Shown piece by piece: positions 2,138 through 6,986 of a stretch of DNA of 10,944 bases. The number at the start of each line of letters is the position of its first letter. Position 1 is the stretch's first letter. The notes below the pieces were generated by a model. The model was not told where the DNA came from, made no database searches, and was given only the letters and a program-made list of their open reading frames with translations. The position numbers and the translations under genes are program-made. The stretch spans positions 1 to 10,944 of the forward strand of contig JAICHC010000040.1 in NCBI GenBank assembly GCA_025922795.1, read 5' to 3'. The DNA comes from Candidatus Binatia bacterium. GTDB lineage: Bacteria; Desulfobacterota_B; Binatia; UBA9968.

Positions 2138-3517
2138 CTATCCGCTTTCTTGGTTGAGCTTGTTCTCGAGCTCAGGTTGATCTGCCGGGATCAGAAGTTC
2201 CTGTCCAATATAAATATAATCCGGATTTCTTAGCGTCTTCGCATTGGCCTTGTAAATCTGGGGCCATTTATAAGTCGAACCGTAAAAACGTAGCGCCAGA
2301 TCTCCTAGCGTATCGCCGGCAACAACCTTGTACGGTCGCGGTAAACCGGACGCATCTGAAATCGGCAATGAAGATTTTTTCGATGGTGTCACAGTTTGCG
2401 CTTTTGCTCGTTCCCTGACTTGAGCGGGTAAAAGCCGGCTTTTTCGGCGGATCCCCGTAACCGACTCAGCTTTGTACAAACGATCAATAAAGCCAGAATC
2501 GTCCAGCTCTTTGACAAATGCTAAATCCACGAAGTGTTCAGGCCGGGCCGTCTCCGCTTTGGGCTCCTTGCCCGCTAACTCCCGGAGCATCACGTCGATT
2601 CCCTTCAGAGTTGGATATGGCTTCTCCGGAAGCAAGCCGAGTCCTATGGTTTTGTAGGTCTCGGTCAAAGCCTCGGTGTCGTCCGTCCGCAAGTATTTCC
2701 GGAGGACTGCGAGAGCCTCTGTGGGGTGCGTTTTGTAGTAATGAATTCCTTCCACATACGCCTTGATTACGTTGCGAACGAGATCAGGCCGGGATTTGAT
2801 CAGTGACTTAGTACTGGACAGCGCTGTATGCTGATACTCCAGCCCGAGCATCCGGAGGTCAGCCAGGATGTTAAACCCCAGCTTCTTCGCCATCAGGGTA
2901 AAAGGCACCTGAACCATCACACCCTGGACTCTCCCTTTCTCGAGGGCGGCGAACCGGGCGGGTTGACTCCCTATTTCCAGAATCGCAACGTCTTTCTCTG
3001 GAACGAGCCCGTATCGTTCCAGCGCGTAGCGGGTAGCGAAGTCTGAGCCCGATCCAAATCGACTGACGGCCACTGCCTTGCCCCTCAACTGATCGGGCCT
3101 CTTGATGTTCTTCGCAACAACAAACTGAAACGGCATCGTGTTGAGAAGGCCAGCAATCATCACTACGTCTGAGCCTTTGAGATGACTCTGTAGGGGGGCA
3201 GCGCCTGCCATTTGAGCCAATGCTACGTCTCCCGCGATCAAGGTTTGGACGGCAGTGCTTCCACCTTCGACAAAAACGATCTGTGCATCCAAGCCATGCT
3301 TACGGAAGAGGCCTGCCTCGTGCGTCATCCAGAGCGGCGCATGGCCAGCGGAGATACCGCCGTAGACGATCGTGACCTTCTCCAGCTGCTCGCCTATCGG
3401 CTTATCTGCTGTGTTCGCGGTAACGGGACAGAGGACTGCCAGCAGCGAAAGACAAACGCATGTCGCGAGCCAGCCATCTCGTTTCTTACATTCCGTATTG
3501 TCCGTTCCCATAAACAT
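2138..3517 (-). CDS. NMT1/SsuA-type solute-binding protein fused to a C-terminal LysM domain
   Basis: This 459-aa product has an N-terminal export signal (KKR at 11-13, hydrophobic 17-34, probable cleavage after ANTA about residue 37). Residues about 46-350 form a type 2 periplasmic binding protein of the NMT1/THI5/SsuA group: VTIVYGGISAGHAPLWMTHEAGLFRKHG, EGGSTAVQTLIAGDVALAQMAG, and LRGKAVAVSRFGSGSDFATRY. Such proteins normally deliver small organic molecules (sulfonates, pyrimidines, taurine) to an ABC importer, but no permease or ATPase gene is nearby. After a basic, Ser/Pro-rich linker (about 351-394), residues 396-445 form a LysM domain (YKVVAGDTLGDLALRFYGS ... IYIGQELLIP), a peptidoglycan-binding module. 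The fusion suggests a wall-tethered receptor. ATG at 3515-3517 is used; a second in-frame ATG lies two codons in. It follows the sensor gene by 60 bp and is probably co-transcribed with it. The ligand is unknown. Confidence 0.9.
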   Translation of the reverse strand: MFMGTDNTECKKRDGWLATCVCLSLLAVLCPVTANTADKPIGEQLEKVTIVYGGISAGHAPLWMTHEAGLFRKHGLDAQIVFVEGGSTAVQTLIAGDVALAQMAGAAPLQSHLKGSDVVMIAGLLNTMPFQFVVAKNIKRPDQLRGKAVAVSRFGSGSDFATRYALERYGLVPEKDVAILEIGSQPARFAALEKGRVQGVMVQVPFTLMAKKLGFNILADLRMLGLEYQHTALSSTKSLIKSRPDLVRNVIKAYVEGIHYYKTHPTEALAVLRKYLRTDDTEALTETYKTIGLGLLPEKPYPTLKGIDVMLRELAGKEPKAETARPEHFVDLAFVKELDDSGFIDRLYKAESVTGIRRKSRLLPAQVRERAKAQTVTPSKKSSLPISDASGLPRPYKVVAGDTLGDLALRFYGSTYKWPQIYKANAKTLRNPDYIYIGQELLIPADQPELENKLNQESG

Positions 3518-3577
3518 AAAACCCAGGTGTTCCTATTGGGTTCGACGTAACGGTCCAAGCTCGCCCGGAATCCGATC

Positions 3578-4330
3578 TCATCCCGTGACTCTAGTTTTAC
3601 CGGGTCTCTCCAAGTCGCCGATGGTCAACGTACCCGCCATATCTGTGAGCCAGCGGATGATCCCTCGCGCGACAAAAACCAGCAGGGCGGCACCGGGAAT
3701 AATCAGGATCATGATCAGCCCGGTTATCGGAAGAAGCGCGCTATAAATTTCTGATGCGACGCTCTCGCCCCATATGCCGATGTGCGCCGCTCCCACTTGA
3801 CCCTCCAGAATCGGCGTGCGGGTCTCGTACACCGTCCTTCCCTGCAATGTAACGACTCGCCGCGTGATCCGATTTCGTTCATTCATAGCCACTGTGTCCA
3901 CAAGCTCCGGAGGAAAACTCCGCAAGCTGTGGGCAACGATCTCTCCTCGGCTATCTTGAATAAAGGCGTACGCCGACCCGTCTAGACGAGCATACTTTGT
4001 AACCAGGGCGTGAAGCTCAAGGGTATTTCTTCCAATAACATGGCCGGCGGCCGCATCACTTAAGGTCGTGGCCACGACCAAGGCCCTTTGATCAATTTGG
4101 GTCCGCAGAGCCCGGCCCAAAAGATGATTCACCATGGCCGCTAGCAGAAGGCCAAAAATCACAACGATGCCGCCAATAATGACGATAATCTTCCACTCGA
4201 GTTGGCTGATATCCTTCCAGCAGAGACTCAACGCCGCGCCGTTGTAGTTGCTCCGCCCGCGAAAGTAAGCGACTCTTGCGCGAGGCCTCTTTTTTTCCAG
4301 TTTTACCAGGGCATCATATATTTTGCTCAT
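3578..4330 (-). CDS. Two-TM Cache-type sensor with GspB-like N-terminus and broken HAMP
   Basis: The start chosen is ATG at 4328-4330, preceded by GGAGAGG, rather than a start 24 codons upstream that would overlap the previous gene; this gives 250 aa. The cytosolic N-terminus MSKIYDALVKLEKKRPR resembles the opening of GspB proteins (MSxILDALKKAE type) and some polysaccharide-export tyrosine kinases. TM1 spans about 47-69, a periplasmic domain about 70-197, and TM2 about 198-222. The periplasmic part contains YAFIQDSRGEIVAHS (121-135), typical of single-Cache sensor domains. After TM2, IIRWLTDMAGTLTIGDLERP is the first half of a HAMP linker, then the frame ends. The next frame encodes DEIGFRASLDRYV at the correct HAMP spacing, so a one-base frameshift near 3583 is likely. 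No kinase, cyclase or methyl-accepting domain follows. It lies 31 bp after the ExeA-like gene and 60 bp before the binding-protein gene. Signal and output are unknown. Confidence 0.75.
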   Translation of the reverse strand: MSKIYDALVKLEKKRPRARVAYFRGRSNYNGAALSLCWKDISQLEWKIIVIIGGIVVIFGLLLAAMVNHLLGRALRTQIDQRALVVATTLSDAAAGHVIGRNTLELHALVTKYARLDGSAYAFIQDSRGEIVAHSLRSFPPELVDTVAMNERNRITRRVVTLQGRTVYETRTPILEGQVGAAHIGIWGESVASEIYSALLPITGLIMILIIPGAALLVFVARGIIRWLTDMAGTLTIGDLERPGKTRVTG

Positions 4331-4361
4331 AGCCTCTCCGGCGGTTGCTGTGTCATGCTGT

Positions 4362-5984
4362 CTATTGCCTGTCCCCATTCGTTGGACTATCAACGACGGC
4401 AAACCAATGATTCCGTACTCCCGTTTCCCAGACTTTGTTGGCCTCTTCAGCGTTCTTTAAACCGTCAATTTCAACCCGGTGCAGCAAAAGATCGTCCGAA
4501 ACCCGGTTCGATGTAATCACGACTTGATATCCGGCGTCGCCCAGGAGTTGGGCGTATTTGTTGGCTTCGGTTAGGCTACGAAATGTTTCCACGATGAGAC
4601 GATAAGAACCGTCCGATTGCTTCCGAAGCATCGTTTCGTGAGTGAGCGGGGGGAGCAAGAGATCCTGACCAGGAAATACCCAATTGAGGTTTTCGATTTG
4701 AGGATTGAATTCCTTGATAAGATCCATAGCCAGGAGAGTGTTAGCTCCATATGCCTCACGGACAATTTTGTGGATAGTGGAGCCATGCTGAATCATGATG
4801 CGCGGGTGCTGCTTGACCGGCGCACGGTTCGCGTCCACTTTAGTTTTTTCAGGGACAGCCGGCTGCTGCGCAATCGCCTCTGCGGTGATTTTTTTTGACA
4901 CAGCCTGCGGATGCGTAATCAGCATGCCCCATTGTTTTAGATTGGCTTTCGAGACCTGAAGCCGATTCGCCGCAGTGTTAAACAATTGCTGGGGATCGAT
5001 CATCGATGCTACCGCAACAAACGCGAGGATTCCCACCAACCCCAAGACCCCGGCACCGATGTGGCGTTCCAATTTAAGCCAAGGGACCGAATTTGGCGCT
5101 TCCCGGAGTGCCGTTGCCGGTTCCTGGTTAGACATTGGGACAGGAGGAATGCTTTCCGCGTCATTGACTTGAAGTTCCGCTCCGAGCCTGAGATCACGGC
5201 CGACTTCCTTGACGATATCGGCGGAAATAACTTTCTGAGAGCCGGCATAGGCAATCAGTAGCGCATTATCGCAGATGATGTTGATCAGTCGGGGAATTCC
5301 CTGCGAATAAAAAGCGATCTGCTGAACCGCGTCCGATTGAAACAGATCCTTACCTGCATAGCCGACAGCCCGAAGCCGAAACTCAATATACGGACCCACC
5401 TCCTCGGCCTTGAGCGGAGCAAGCCGGCATTGAAAAGCCACCCGCTGTTTAAGCTGCCGGAGTCCGGGCTGATCAAGTTTTGCCTTAAGCTCAGGCTGTC
5501 CCATCAGCACAATCTGGAGCAGCTTTTCCTGATCGGTCTCGAGATTGGAGAGAAGTCTCAGCCCTTCCAGCGCCTCATCGCTCAAATTCTGGGCTTCGTC
5601 GATTAGCACCGAAACGACATGGCCCTGTTTGAGCTGCTTGATCAAATAATCGTTCAGCTCCTGAAGCATCGTCACCTTATTTGGTTGTTCAGGGGCTAAA
5701 CCCAGATCGTGAAGAATGAGCTGCAGCAATTCCGGAAAGCTTAAGAGGGTGTTGAAGATAAAGACCGAATGGATGGTATCACTCAGGTTGCGCATCAGTT
5801 TGCGCAGCAGGGTGGTTTTTCCTGTTCCCACCTCGCCCGTAATAACAATGAAACCTTTCTTGGCTTCGATCCCGTATCGCAGGGCCGCGAAAGCTTCCTG
5901 GTAGACAGGATTGCTGTAAAACAAACGCGGATCGGGAGTAACGTTGAAAGGTGACTCTGCAAATCCAAAGTAGCTGTTGTACAT
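4362..5984 (-). CDS. ExeA/GspA-like AAA ATPase with TM, LysM and SPOR-like domains
   Basis: Starting at ATG 5982-5984 the protein is 540 aa and opens MYNSYFGFAESPFNVTPDP, the standard ExeA/GspA and PEP-CTERM-locus ATPase beginning. The cytosolic ATPase domain (about 1-270) has Walker A GEVGTGKTT (50-58), Walker B VSVLIDEAQNL (124-134), sensor-like QIVLMGQPEL (157-166) and a conserved LKQRVAFQ (178-185). A membrane segment follows at about 308-328, then a periplasmic part with a LysM domain (about 395-447, ending VFPGQDLLLPP) and a SPOR-like domain (about 459-532, YRLIVETFRSLTEANKYAQLLGDAGYQV). ExeA proteins use ATP and a peptidoglycan-binding periplasmic domain to help place secretin or envelope complexes across the wall; here LysM plus SPOR-like modules occupy that place. 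An upstream in-frame extension to 6167 needs a TTG start and lacks family features. The next gene begins 31 bp downstream and has a GspB-like N-terminus, as in gspA-gspB pairs. No secretin is in the window, so the partner machine is unknown. Confidence 0.9.
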   Translation of the reverse strand: MYNSYFGFAESPFNVTPDPRLFYSNPVYQEAFAALRYGIEAKKGFIVITGEVGTGKTTLLRKLMRNLSDTIHSVFIFNTLLSFPELLQLILHDLGLAPEQPNKVTMLQELNDYLIKQLKQGHVVSVLIDEAQNLSDEALEGLRLLSNLETDQEKLLQIVLMGQPELKAKLDQPGLRQLKQRVAFQCRLAPLKAEEVGPYIEFRLRAVGYAGKDLFQSDAVQQIAFYSQGIPRLINIICDNALLIAYAGSQKVISADIVKEVGRDLRLGAELQVNDAESIPPVPMSNQEPATALREAPNSVPWLKLERHIGAGVLGLVGILAFVAVASMIDPQQLFNTAANRLQVSKANLKQWGMLITHPQAVSKKITAEAIAQQPAVPEKTKVDANRAPVKQHPRIMIQHGSTIHKIVREAYGANTLLAMDLIKEFNPQIENLNWVFPGQDLLLPPLTHETMLRKQSDGSYRLIVETFRSLTEANKYAQLLGDAGYQVVITSNRVSDDLLLHRVEIDGLKNAEEANKVWETGVRNHWFAVVDSPTNGDRQ

Positions 5985-6278: not shown

Positions 6279-6986
6279 TTAAAACGCTCTTGTTTCCAAC
6301 GACTTCCGGTCGGAAATCAAATCGTGATCGATTGCATACGTAAGTAGCTGCAGGCGGGTTTGGACCTTAAATCTCTTGTAAAGCTTGGCTAAGTGAAACT
6401 TGACTGTAACCTCAGCCACCCCGACCTTGTTGGCGATCTCCTTATTGCTCAGGCCTTTGGCAAGAAGACTTACAAGAGTTCGCTCGCGAACGGTAATTAG
6501 GTCCGTTCGGGTGGCCACCGGCTTGATATCTTTGAGAGTGATTAAGCGTCCGAGGCTCCGTGCTATTGCCTCCGGCGGGCCCCAGATGAGACCTTTACTG
6601 ACGAATTTCAAGCTTTCGAGCAGATTTTCAGGTTGACCGGAGAGTAAGAAATAGCCTTTGGCGCCCGCAATCAAAATCTCAGCGACCTTGTCGATATTCG
6701 CTTCGTAACCATGAACAAGAATGTTGGCTTTAGGGAAAATGCCTTTGATCTTCGTAACCAATGATAGCTTGAAATCAGCCAGAAGAGCATGCGAAAGCAT
6801 CACCACGGTGGGATCCAAATCCGGCGAATTATTTCTTAGAGCAAGGATTTTATTATAATCGACGCCGTCAACGAGCTTGATCTGAGCTTCCTCCTTTAGG
6901 ACGTGCATGAATCCGAGGCGACGCCACGGGTCAGGCTCAAGTACCAGGACCACGATTTCCGCGCGGGAAACGTCGTTGCGATTCAC
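6279..6986 (-). CDS. LuxR/NarL-type regulator with degenerate pseudo-receiver domain
   Basis: The 235-aa product has a receiver-like domain at about 10-130 and a LuxR-type helix-turn-helix at about 163-222 (LITVRERTLVSLLAKGLSNKEIANKVGVAEVTVKFHLAKLYKRF), which binds DNA as a dimer. The architecture matches NarL/FixJ response regulators, but the phosphorylation site is lost. The strand that should end in the acceptor Asp reads VVMLSHALL, placing Ser65 there. The acidic pocket normally DD reads EP (LEPDP, 16-20), and the conserved Lys after the fifth strand is Ser (YFLLSGQ). It is therefore unlikely to be controlled by a classic histidine kinase and may be set by ligand, protein partner or amount. 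The start is GTG at 6984-6986 with GGGAAG just upstream. It precedes the envelope gene cluster on the same strand by about 290 bp, so it is a candidate regulator of it; that link is inferred. Confidence 0.9.
   Translation of the reverse strand: MNRNDVSRAEIVVLVLEPDPWRRLGFMHVLKEEAQIKLVDGVDYNKILALRNNSPDLDPTVVMLSHALLADFKLSLVTKIKGIFPKANILVHGYEANIDKVAEILIAGAKGYFLLSGQPENLLESLKFVSKGLIWGPPEAIARSLGRLITLKDIKPVATRTDLITVRERTLVSLLAKGLSNKEIANKVGVAEVTVKFHLAKLYKRFKVQTRLQLLTYAIDHDLISDRKSLETRAF

Follow-up and report, generated by a model that had tools for sequence, protein, structure and literature searches.

A wall-tethered binding protein, a Cache membrane protein and an ExeA-like AAA+ ATPase as a candidate signalling unit in a Binatia bacterium

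What three adjoining genes for an AAA+ ATPase, a Cache membrane protein and a solute-binding protein with a peptidoglycan anchor might do together is the question raised by a 10,944-nucleotide stretch of DNA from Candidatus Binatia bacterium (contig JAICHC010000040.1 of assembly GCA_025922795.1), referred to here as the window. The genes follow one another on the minus strand in that order, with 31 bases between the ATPase and Cache genes and 60 bases between the Cache and binding-protein genes, and their tight spacing and boundaries agree with a first-pass annotation made from the sequence alone, which had described them as a GspA/GspB pair rebuilt as a sensory, wall-anchored module. The three-gene arrangement is more than chance, since it recurs in other genomes. 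With a probability that we place at roughly 0.55, the three genes form one transmembrane signalling unit, in which a receptor made up of the binding protein and the Cache protein would work through interchangeable cytosolic partners, the partner in the window being a wall-anchored AAA+ ATPase.

Within the window, the binding protein matches NMT1 (83.3 bits, cut-off 20.5) and LysM (36.8 bits, cut-off 20.9), and the membrane protein matches sCache_3_2 at 47.9 bits (cut-off 28.4) and has two transmembrane (TM) helices by hydropathy. In the Pfam listing of the membrane protein at E ≤ 1 only sCache_3_2 and dCache_1 appear, the GspB domain PF16537 not being among them; the Cache sensor in place of that domain and the LysM-tethered binding protein, both proposed in the first-pass annotation, are thereby borne out. 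No output domain was found on the Cache protein in Pfam or NCBIfam. The protein ends shortly after its second TM helix, and its aligned relatives terminate at or beyond HAMP. Profile comparison with E. coli DcuS for the ligand residues reached a probability of 1.4, and the Cache ligand is therefore not predictable; the profile of the Cache alignment, run against solved structures, matched nothing at E ≤ 10.

The ATPase carries AAA_22 (92.9 bits, Pfam) and, on its periplasmic side, a peptidoglycan-binding part that is present as SPOR plus a LysM-like segment and not as PF01471. SPOR scores 17.3 bits in the window protein against a Pfam cut-off of 21, exceeds that cut-off in the orthologs from loci L079 (26.1 bits) and L080 (21.5 bits), and is detected at E ≤ 0.1 in 29 of 30 aligned members of the ATPase family. 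Over residues ~395–540 Pfam lists SPOR alone at E ≤ 10, the LysM being too divergent for it, and profile comparison matched the LysM-like segment to the LysM of the binding protein (probability 84.7, E 6.7e-6). Two control segments from the same ATPase gave nothing in that comparison, and the earlier description of the periplasmic part as LysM plus SPOR-like holds.

A search with the Cache profile at E ≤ 1e-40 located 27 places in one order-level group of 35 genomes, 14 of which carry at least one; when the search was widened to 148 genomes of the class, the same 14 came back. Names attached to homologs, Candidatus Binatia for P0007 (74%) and Nitrospirota for P0058 (58%), point to Binatia without amounting to a formal placement. 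A phylum-wide draw of 395 genomes gave 24 matches at E ≤ 1e-20, one of which was G001 itself and the best other of which reached 103 bits, weak for hits outside the known genomes; in a second draw of 345 the single match at E ≤ 1e-40 was G004 itself. Using the longest fragment obtained for each of the 27 places, the binding protein adjoins the Cache gene on the same strand at 23, of which 20 span the LysM and three are cut by contig ends; at one of the 23 (G004:C429) it lies upstream of the Cache gene. The order ATPase, Cache, binding protein is found at 11 of the 27 places, in nine genomes. The genes thus recur together beyond this genome, although within one order-level group and not across distant genomes, and the earlier view of a sensory-looking and wall-anchored set whose members belong together is supported. 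Longer Cache homologs were also seen at L176:8354-9478 (374 amino acids, aa) and L177:8755-9846 (363 aa), without a binding protein, ATPase or DUF4388 neighbour; HAMP is present in the one of them that was scanned, from L176.

The LysM-bearing form of the binding protein co-occurs with the Cache gene. At most 47 candidates were scored per genome, with LysM-spanning matches ranking top, and among the matches listed all but two of these sit at Cache places, the exceptions (G428:C272 and G005:C579) being contig-edge pieces that fit the halves missing at G428:C52 and G005:C454. On the same matches, LysM binding proteins occur in 13 of the 14 genomes with a Cache place and in none of the 21 others (Fisher p 9e-9). 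Shared contig sizes support linkage of ATPase and Cache genes and suggest further pairs of the window type, with 10 coincidences, one of them between different sources, against a null mean of 1.3 and a maximum of 5. As a separate observation, G417, G420 and G422 each hold 425–478 NMT1-type candidates at first look, and G422 gave 40 binding-protein matches at E ≤ 1e-80 among its 47 scored.

Natural fusions link the Cache protein with the ATPase in one case and with the binding protein in another. In G003 a 761-aa frame joins AAA_22, sCache_3_2 and HAMP and is followed by the binding protein, and in G422 a 734-aa frame joins Cache, HAMP, NMT1 and LysM (sCache_3_2 at 21.4 bits, under the cut-off of 28.4). 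The gene right upstream of Cache encodes an ATPase at 13 of the 27 places, a DUF4388 protein at 10 and neither at four, and at no place do both occur. These two partners have a domain in common: beyond about residue 170, the 264-aa DUF4388 protein matches the C-terminal ends of 12 among the 13 Cache-adjacent ATPases, and alignment shows the shared pattern TEAMGPMA..V..D.I.ALGES...FP...L..L...EI. The domain measures about 75 aa (within L072:2810-3124, minus strand), was aligned across nine Cache-adjacent ATPases, the fused ATPase, two kinase-side ATPases and five DUF4388 proteins (that of L065 being omitted), and gave no Pfam match in four segments even at E ≤ 10. It is partly degraded in the ATPase-Cache fusion, which is what a role in recruiting the ATPase to the receptor would predict. 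The thirteenth Cache-adjacent ATPase, from G426:C211, is of the window type, with TM, LysM-like and SPOR parts replacing the C-terminal domain and a Cache neighbour that starts MSSVYNAL; the window ATPase likewise lacks the domain.

A second conserved neighbourhood was observed ahead of Cache and binding-protein genes (L072:2807-3601, L174:751-7112 and L171:3089-9663), comprising a MAIGELLLAK-type protein with a possible P-loop, a sigma-54 activator (by Pfam in L174), a 108-aa protein and the DUF4388 protein; in L171 it includes a protein of ~430–530 aa without a clear Pfam match.

The MSKIYDAL start of the window Cache protein is kept in its homologs and belongs to an N-terminal peptide common to GspB (e.g. 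MSYILEALKKAEQKR) and stand-alone polysaccharide tyrosine kinases (MSKIYKALEKAEKER, MSKIFEALVKAEEKL). Peptide profiles were built from 34 kinase rows and 13 GspB rows (of 22 GspB loci), all chosen as motif-bearing; in the other GspB loci the start went unrecognised or a different frame was taken. The window N-terminus scores 26.1 on the kinase profile and 21.9 on the GspB profile, values equalled by none of 1004 background Met-20-mers on either; just one background 20-mer, from the L079 Cache protein, rises above zero against the kinase profile. The description of this start as GspB-like therefore stands in that it aligns with GspB and other ATPase-partner families, and falls short in that the Cache family is nearer to the kinases. 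A plain M[ST]xxxxAL start occurs in 97 of 120 Cache homologs, and 87 of these 97 are nearer to the kinase than to the GspB profile; an earlier comparison (68 of 77) had picked homologs by kinase score, which favours that answer. With 13 kinases per draw as a size-matched test, a median of 83 of 97 homologs (range 49–95) remained nearer to kinases, and the window peptide favoured the kinase profile in 125 of 200 draws, a margin that makes the choice weak for this peptide alone. The peptide of the Cache family thus leans to the kinases, that of the window itself weakly. Across 48 kinase loci (18 + 30, the strongest of a longer list) the peptide is present in 35 of 39 stand-alone kinases and in none of nine large ones, the L092 kinase scoring as negative only since the pattern barred glutamine at position 10. 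An ATPase lies within the short fragment for 24 of the 35 motif-bearing stand-alone kinases; six of the nine large kinases reach the fragment start, so that a missing ATPase there says little. These associations suggest that the peptide may be an ATPase-docking element.

The kinase leaning would also suit a Cache protein that mimics the kinase N-terminus, engages polysaccharide-locus ATPases encoded elsewhere and tunes capsule or exopolysaccharide export by ligand. Besides the leaning itself, the kinase of L179 starts MSKIFEALVKAEEK and stands beside an ATPase 58.5% identical to that of the window over residues 1–270, and in L077, where the triad lies in an XrtA-like polysaccharide locus, a fused Cache-binding protein sits between the polysaccharide ATPase and the kinase. 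Against this, the window-type receptor has its own adjoining ATPase, the L179 ATPase bears the soluble C-terminal domain and not TM-LysM-SPOR, queries for export, chain-length, kinase and glycosyltransferase genes found nothing in the window, and the window peptide chose the kinases in no more than the 125 draws given above. We regard such an export adaptor as possible but unlikely.

The best curated model for the window ATPase is TIGR03015, the XrtA/PEP-CTERM ATPase, at 299.8 bits and under its cut-off of 324.5. In a tree of 51 ATPases, the GspA rows were drawn from GspB loci because the E. coli K-12 proteins GspA and GspB were too distant to serve as references; 22 such loci were found and 14 enlarged, and all 14 enlarged loci contain the ATPase. 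These 14 GspA rows form one clade (support 100/99), outside which the window ATPase groups with those of L079 and L080 (99/93), then with six further triad ATPases (95/88), the next out being the polysaccharide-locus ATPase of L179 (100/100). Membership in the wider ExeA/GspA/XrtA ATPase family is supported, and the ExeA/GspA-type label of the first-pass annotation can be kept in that sense.

The same family membership, the peptide shared with GspB and the ATPase in every enlarged GspB locus would each be accommodated if the genes derived from a genuine GspA/GspB pair and served to set a secretin through the wall, Cache standing in for the GspB periplasmic domain. Natural GspA-GspB fusions, described in the accessible part of PMC9239104, parallel the ATPase-Cache fusion, and secretins occur in 35 of 35 relatives. 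The separate GspA clade speaks against this origin, as do the absence of PF16537 from the Cache protein and from 34 of the 35 relatives and the fact that relatives lacking the system have secretins just as often, none being found in the window. A GspA/GspB derivative was rejected on the clade and on PF16537, found in just one of 35 relatives; we hold it to be improbable, and the notion of a rebuilt GspA/GspB pair was abandoned.

On two DUF4388-type Cache loci, L070 and L073, a secretin lies ~12 kb away on the same contig; these contigs carry genes that, from the look of the sequence and not from a scan, we take to be Tad-pilus-like.

The Cache and binding proteins could instead form a general-purpose receptor signalling to transcriptional or other regulators, with the ATPase a passenger in some loci. 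The DUF4388 gene that replaces the ATPase at 10 of 27 Cache places, the sigma-54 activator in L174 and the NarL-like regulator upstream in the window would fit such a role, but 12 of the 13 Cache-adjacent ATPases bear the C-terminal domain of the DUF4388 protein and one ATPase is fused to Cache, which argues that the ATPase is a real partner and leaves the passenger account with little probability. That the binding protein is an orphan of an ABC importer beside unrelated envelope genes, its sensory link accidental, is very improbable: NMT1/SsuA proteins usually serve importers and these genomes seem rich in NMT1 candidates (up to 478 at first look in one genome), but among the matches listed every LysM version either accompanies a Cache gene or is a contig-edge piece, one is fused to Cache, and no TauC-like permease is encoded in the loci. 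An import function was rejected on the Cache placement of the listed LysM binding proteins and on TauC, which at E ≤ 1e-5 matched neither the window nor any of 28 system loci; among these loci TauB matched in L062 and L078 only. Speaking for sensing, a close relative of the binding protein in G415 (59%), itself devoid of LysM, has a HisKA/HATPase histidine kinase directly after it (L231:7453-10216).

Several observations weigh against the three genes being one signalling unit with the ATPase as its output. The exact window-type trio, with a MSKIYDAL Cache protein, a TM/LysM/SPOR ATPase and a LysM binding protein, was seen in the window only; at G426:C211, which has the window-type ATPase and Cache, the remaining 808 bases of the contig hold another open reading frame (ORF), and at G004:C378 the contig stops within the Cache gene. 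Contig-size coincidences with the window-type binding protein numbered 2 and 4, within the null, and do not establish that linkage. Each fusion type is known from a single genome. Since 10 of 27 Cache genes adjoin a DUF4388 gene without an ATPase and four adjoin neither, the ATPase is not a constant output. Nor is the C-terminal domain exclusive to Cache pairing, because the L179 and L181 ATPases carry it beside kinases in fragments that hold no Cache gene; and the peptide is not needed for the ATPase-Cache pairing, because the Cache proteins of the 12 domain-bearing ATPases, where looked at, lack the MSKIYDAL start. Four other triad ATPases fall in a separate clade (99/98) with three kinase-locus ATPases of the same genome group; recruitment from the ATPase family therefore probably took place several times, and the ATPase-receptor association may have more than one origin. 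Proximity to polysaccharide genes, among the things that the first-pass annotation proposed to check, is seen at L077, but the tested polysaccharide genes occur at one of 27 Cache places and an exosortase in one of the 35 genomes of the order-level group, the latter figure being the ground on which a general exosortase/PEP-CTERM tie was rejected.

A signalling unit built on the binding-protein/Cache receptor would work as follows. The exported NMT1-type protein, held to peptidoglycan by its LysM, would capture a small molecule and act on the Cache domain that the membrane protein exposes outside the cytoplasm. Having no output domain of its own, the membrane protein would control a separate cytosolic partner. 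In most relatives this partner would be an ATPase or a DUF4388 protein, recruited through the common C-terminal domain as a putative docking domain. In the window type that domain is gone, and the receptor may instead recruit its partner by the MSKIYDAL peptide, as would stand-alone polysaccharide tyrosine kinases, which mostly lie beside the same kind of ATPase. The predicted output of the window type is then the ExeA-like AAA+ ATPase, crossing the membrane and gripping the wall through LysM and SPOR, and its job would probably be to assemble or gate an envelope structure located at the wall, for example in polysaccharide export. Both the direction of the signal and control of the ATPase by the receptor are presumed here, and the ATP-driven envelope remodelling or secretion proposed in the first-pass annotation may be the end point.

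More tentatively, and with rather less confidence than the signalling unit itself, a class of signalling systems can be envisaged in which a wall-tethered binding protein and a Cache half-receptor drive swappable partners by means of portable docking elements; a small molecule on the peptidoglycan side would thereby directly switch an AAA+ envelope machine. The docking elements proposed are the C-terminal domain on the partner or the kinase/GspB-type N-terminal peptide on the receptor. If this is true, MSxIxxALxKAE would be a general docking peptide for ExeA-type ATPases across GspB, polysaccharide tyrosine kinases and the Cache receptor, and the presence of one short N-terminal peptide in all three offers a testable idea on how these ATPases recognise their partners. 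A literature search, for which subscription papers were mostly out of reach, returned no description of this combination.

The coordinates of the three genes, their domains and one neighbour are collected in Table 1. No match to a secretin, permease or importer ATPase was found by Pfam in the 10 ORFs of the window (for the ATPase, among the best 25 of 47 families), the same scan found no type II secretion genes, and E. coli TauB and TauC gave no tblastn match to the window, in agreement with the earlier statement that none of these components is in view. The regulator upstream of the ATPase has a GerE DNA-binding domain by Pfam and no receiver at E ≤ 1, although the receiver may be degenerate. 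Right after the three genes, at positions 1007–1729, lies an ORF of 240 aa that looks like a lipoprotein and matches nothing in Pfam or NCBIfam.

Table 1. Positions of the three genes, their parts and the upstream regulator in the window.
Feature	Position	Strand	Basis or remark
AAA+ ATPase, ExeA/GspA/XrtA-ATPase family, 540 aa, TM + LysM-like + SPOR	4362..5984	-	ATG 5984, stop 4362
ATPase domain (residues 1-270), Walker A GEVGTGKTT	5175..5984	-	
ATPase TM helix, predicted, about residues 311-329	4998..5054	-	hydropathy
ATPase LysM-like domain (residues 394-448)	4641..4805	-	hhalign to LysM of binding protein; missed by Pfam
ATPase SPOR domain (residues 458-518)	4431..4613	-	under Pfam cut-off in window protein
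Cache membrane protein, 250 aa, without recognised cytosolic output domain	3578..4330	-	ATG 4330, stop 3578
N-terminal peptide of Cache protein, MSKIYDALVKLEKK..., putative ATPase-docking element	4271..4330	-	
sCache_3_2 domain, flanked by TM helices at about residues 48-66 and 202-220	3734..4114	-	Pfam, hydropathy
NMT1/SsuA-type solute-binding protein with C-terminal LysM, 459 aa	2138..3517	-	ATG 3517, stop 2138
LysM of binding protein (residues 396-444)	2186..2332	-	Pfam
NarL/LuxR-type regulator upstream of ATPase; neighbour, not claimed as part of the system	6279..6986	-	

Compared with known systems, the window shares with GspA/GspB (ExeA/ExeB) of type II secretion an AAA+ ATPase with a TM helix and a peptidoglycan-binding periplasmic part, a membrane partner with an MSxIxxAL N-terminus and, in its relatives, a natural fusion of ATPase and partner, as GspA-GspB in the accessible part of PMC9239104. 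It differs in the separate clade of its ATPase, in the LysM and SPOR that this ATPase carries and not PF01471 with a cysteine-peptidase-like domain, in the Cache domain in place of PF16537, in the additional binding protein and in having no secretin found in the window. The XrtA system, with its TIGR03015 ATPase and TIGR03018 tyrosine kinase, supplies the best curated ATPase model and stand-alone kinases with the same N-terminal peptide, whereas the window has a Cache receptor where the kinase would be, an ATPase score under the cut-off and none of the polysaccharide genes tested. DcuS/CitA-type sensor kinases have a periplasmic domain of the same Pfam family, sCache_3_2, but the window Cache protein has no kinase. 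In receptors activated by solute-binding proteins, a binding protein without a transporter likewise adjoins a transmembrane receptor with an extracytoplasmic ligand-binding domain (accessible part of PMC9602780); the window receptor differs in its lack of a recognised output domain, in the AAA+ ATPase or DUF4388 protein that is its neighbour in the system and in the LysM on its binding protein. Chemoreceptors, sensor kinases, cyclases/phosphodiesterases and Ser/Thr kinases are the established targets of such activation; an ATPase is not among the outputs named in that part of PMC9602780, and a wall-anchored AAA+ ATPase in this role would add a new kind of output to those kinases, cyclases and chemoreceptors.

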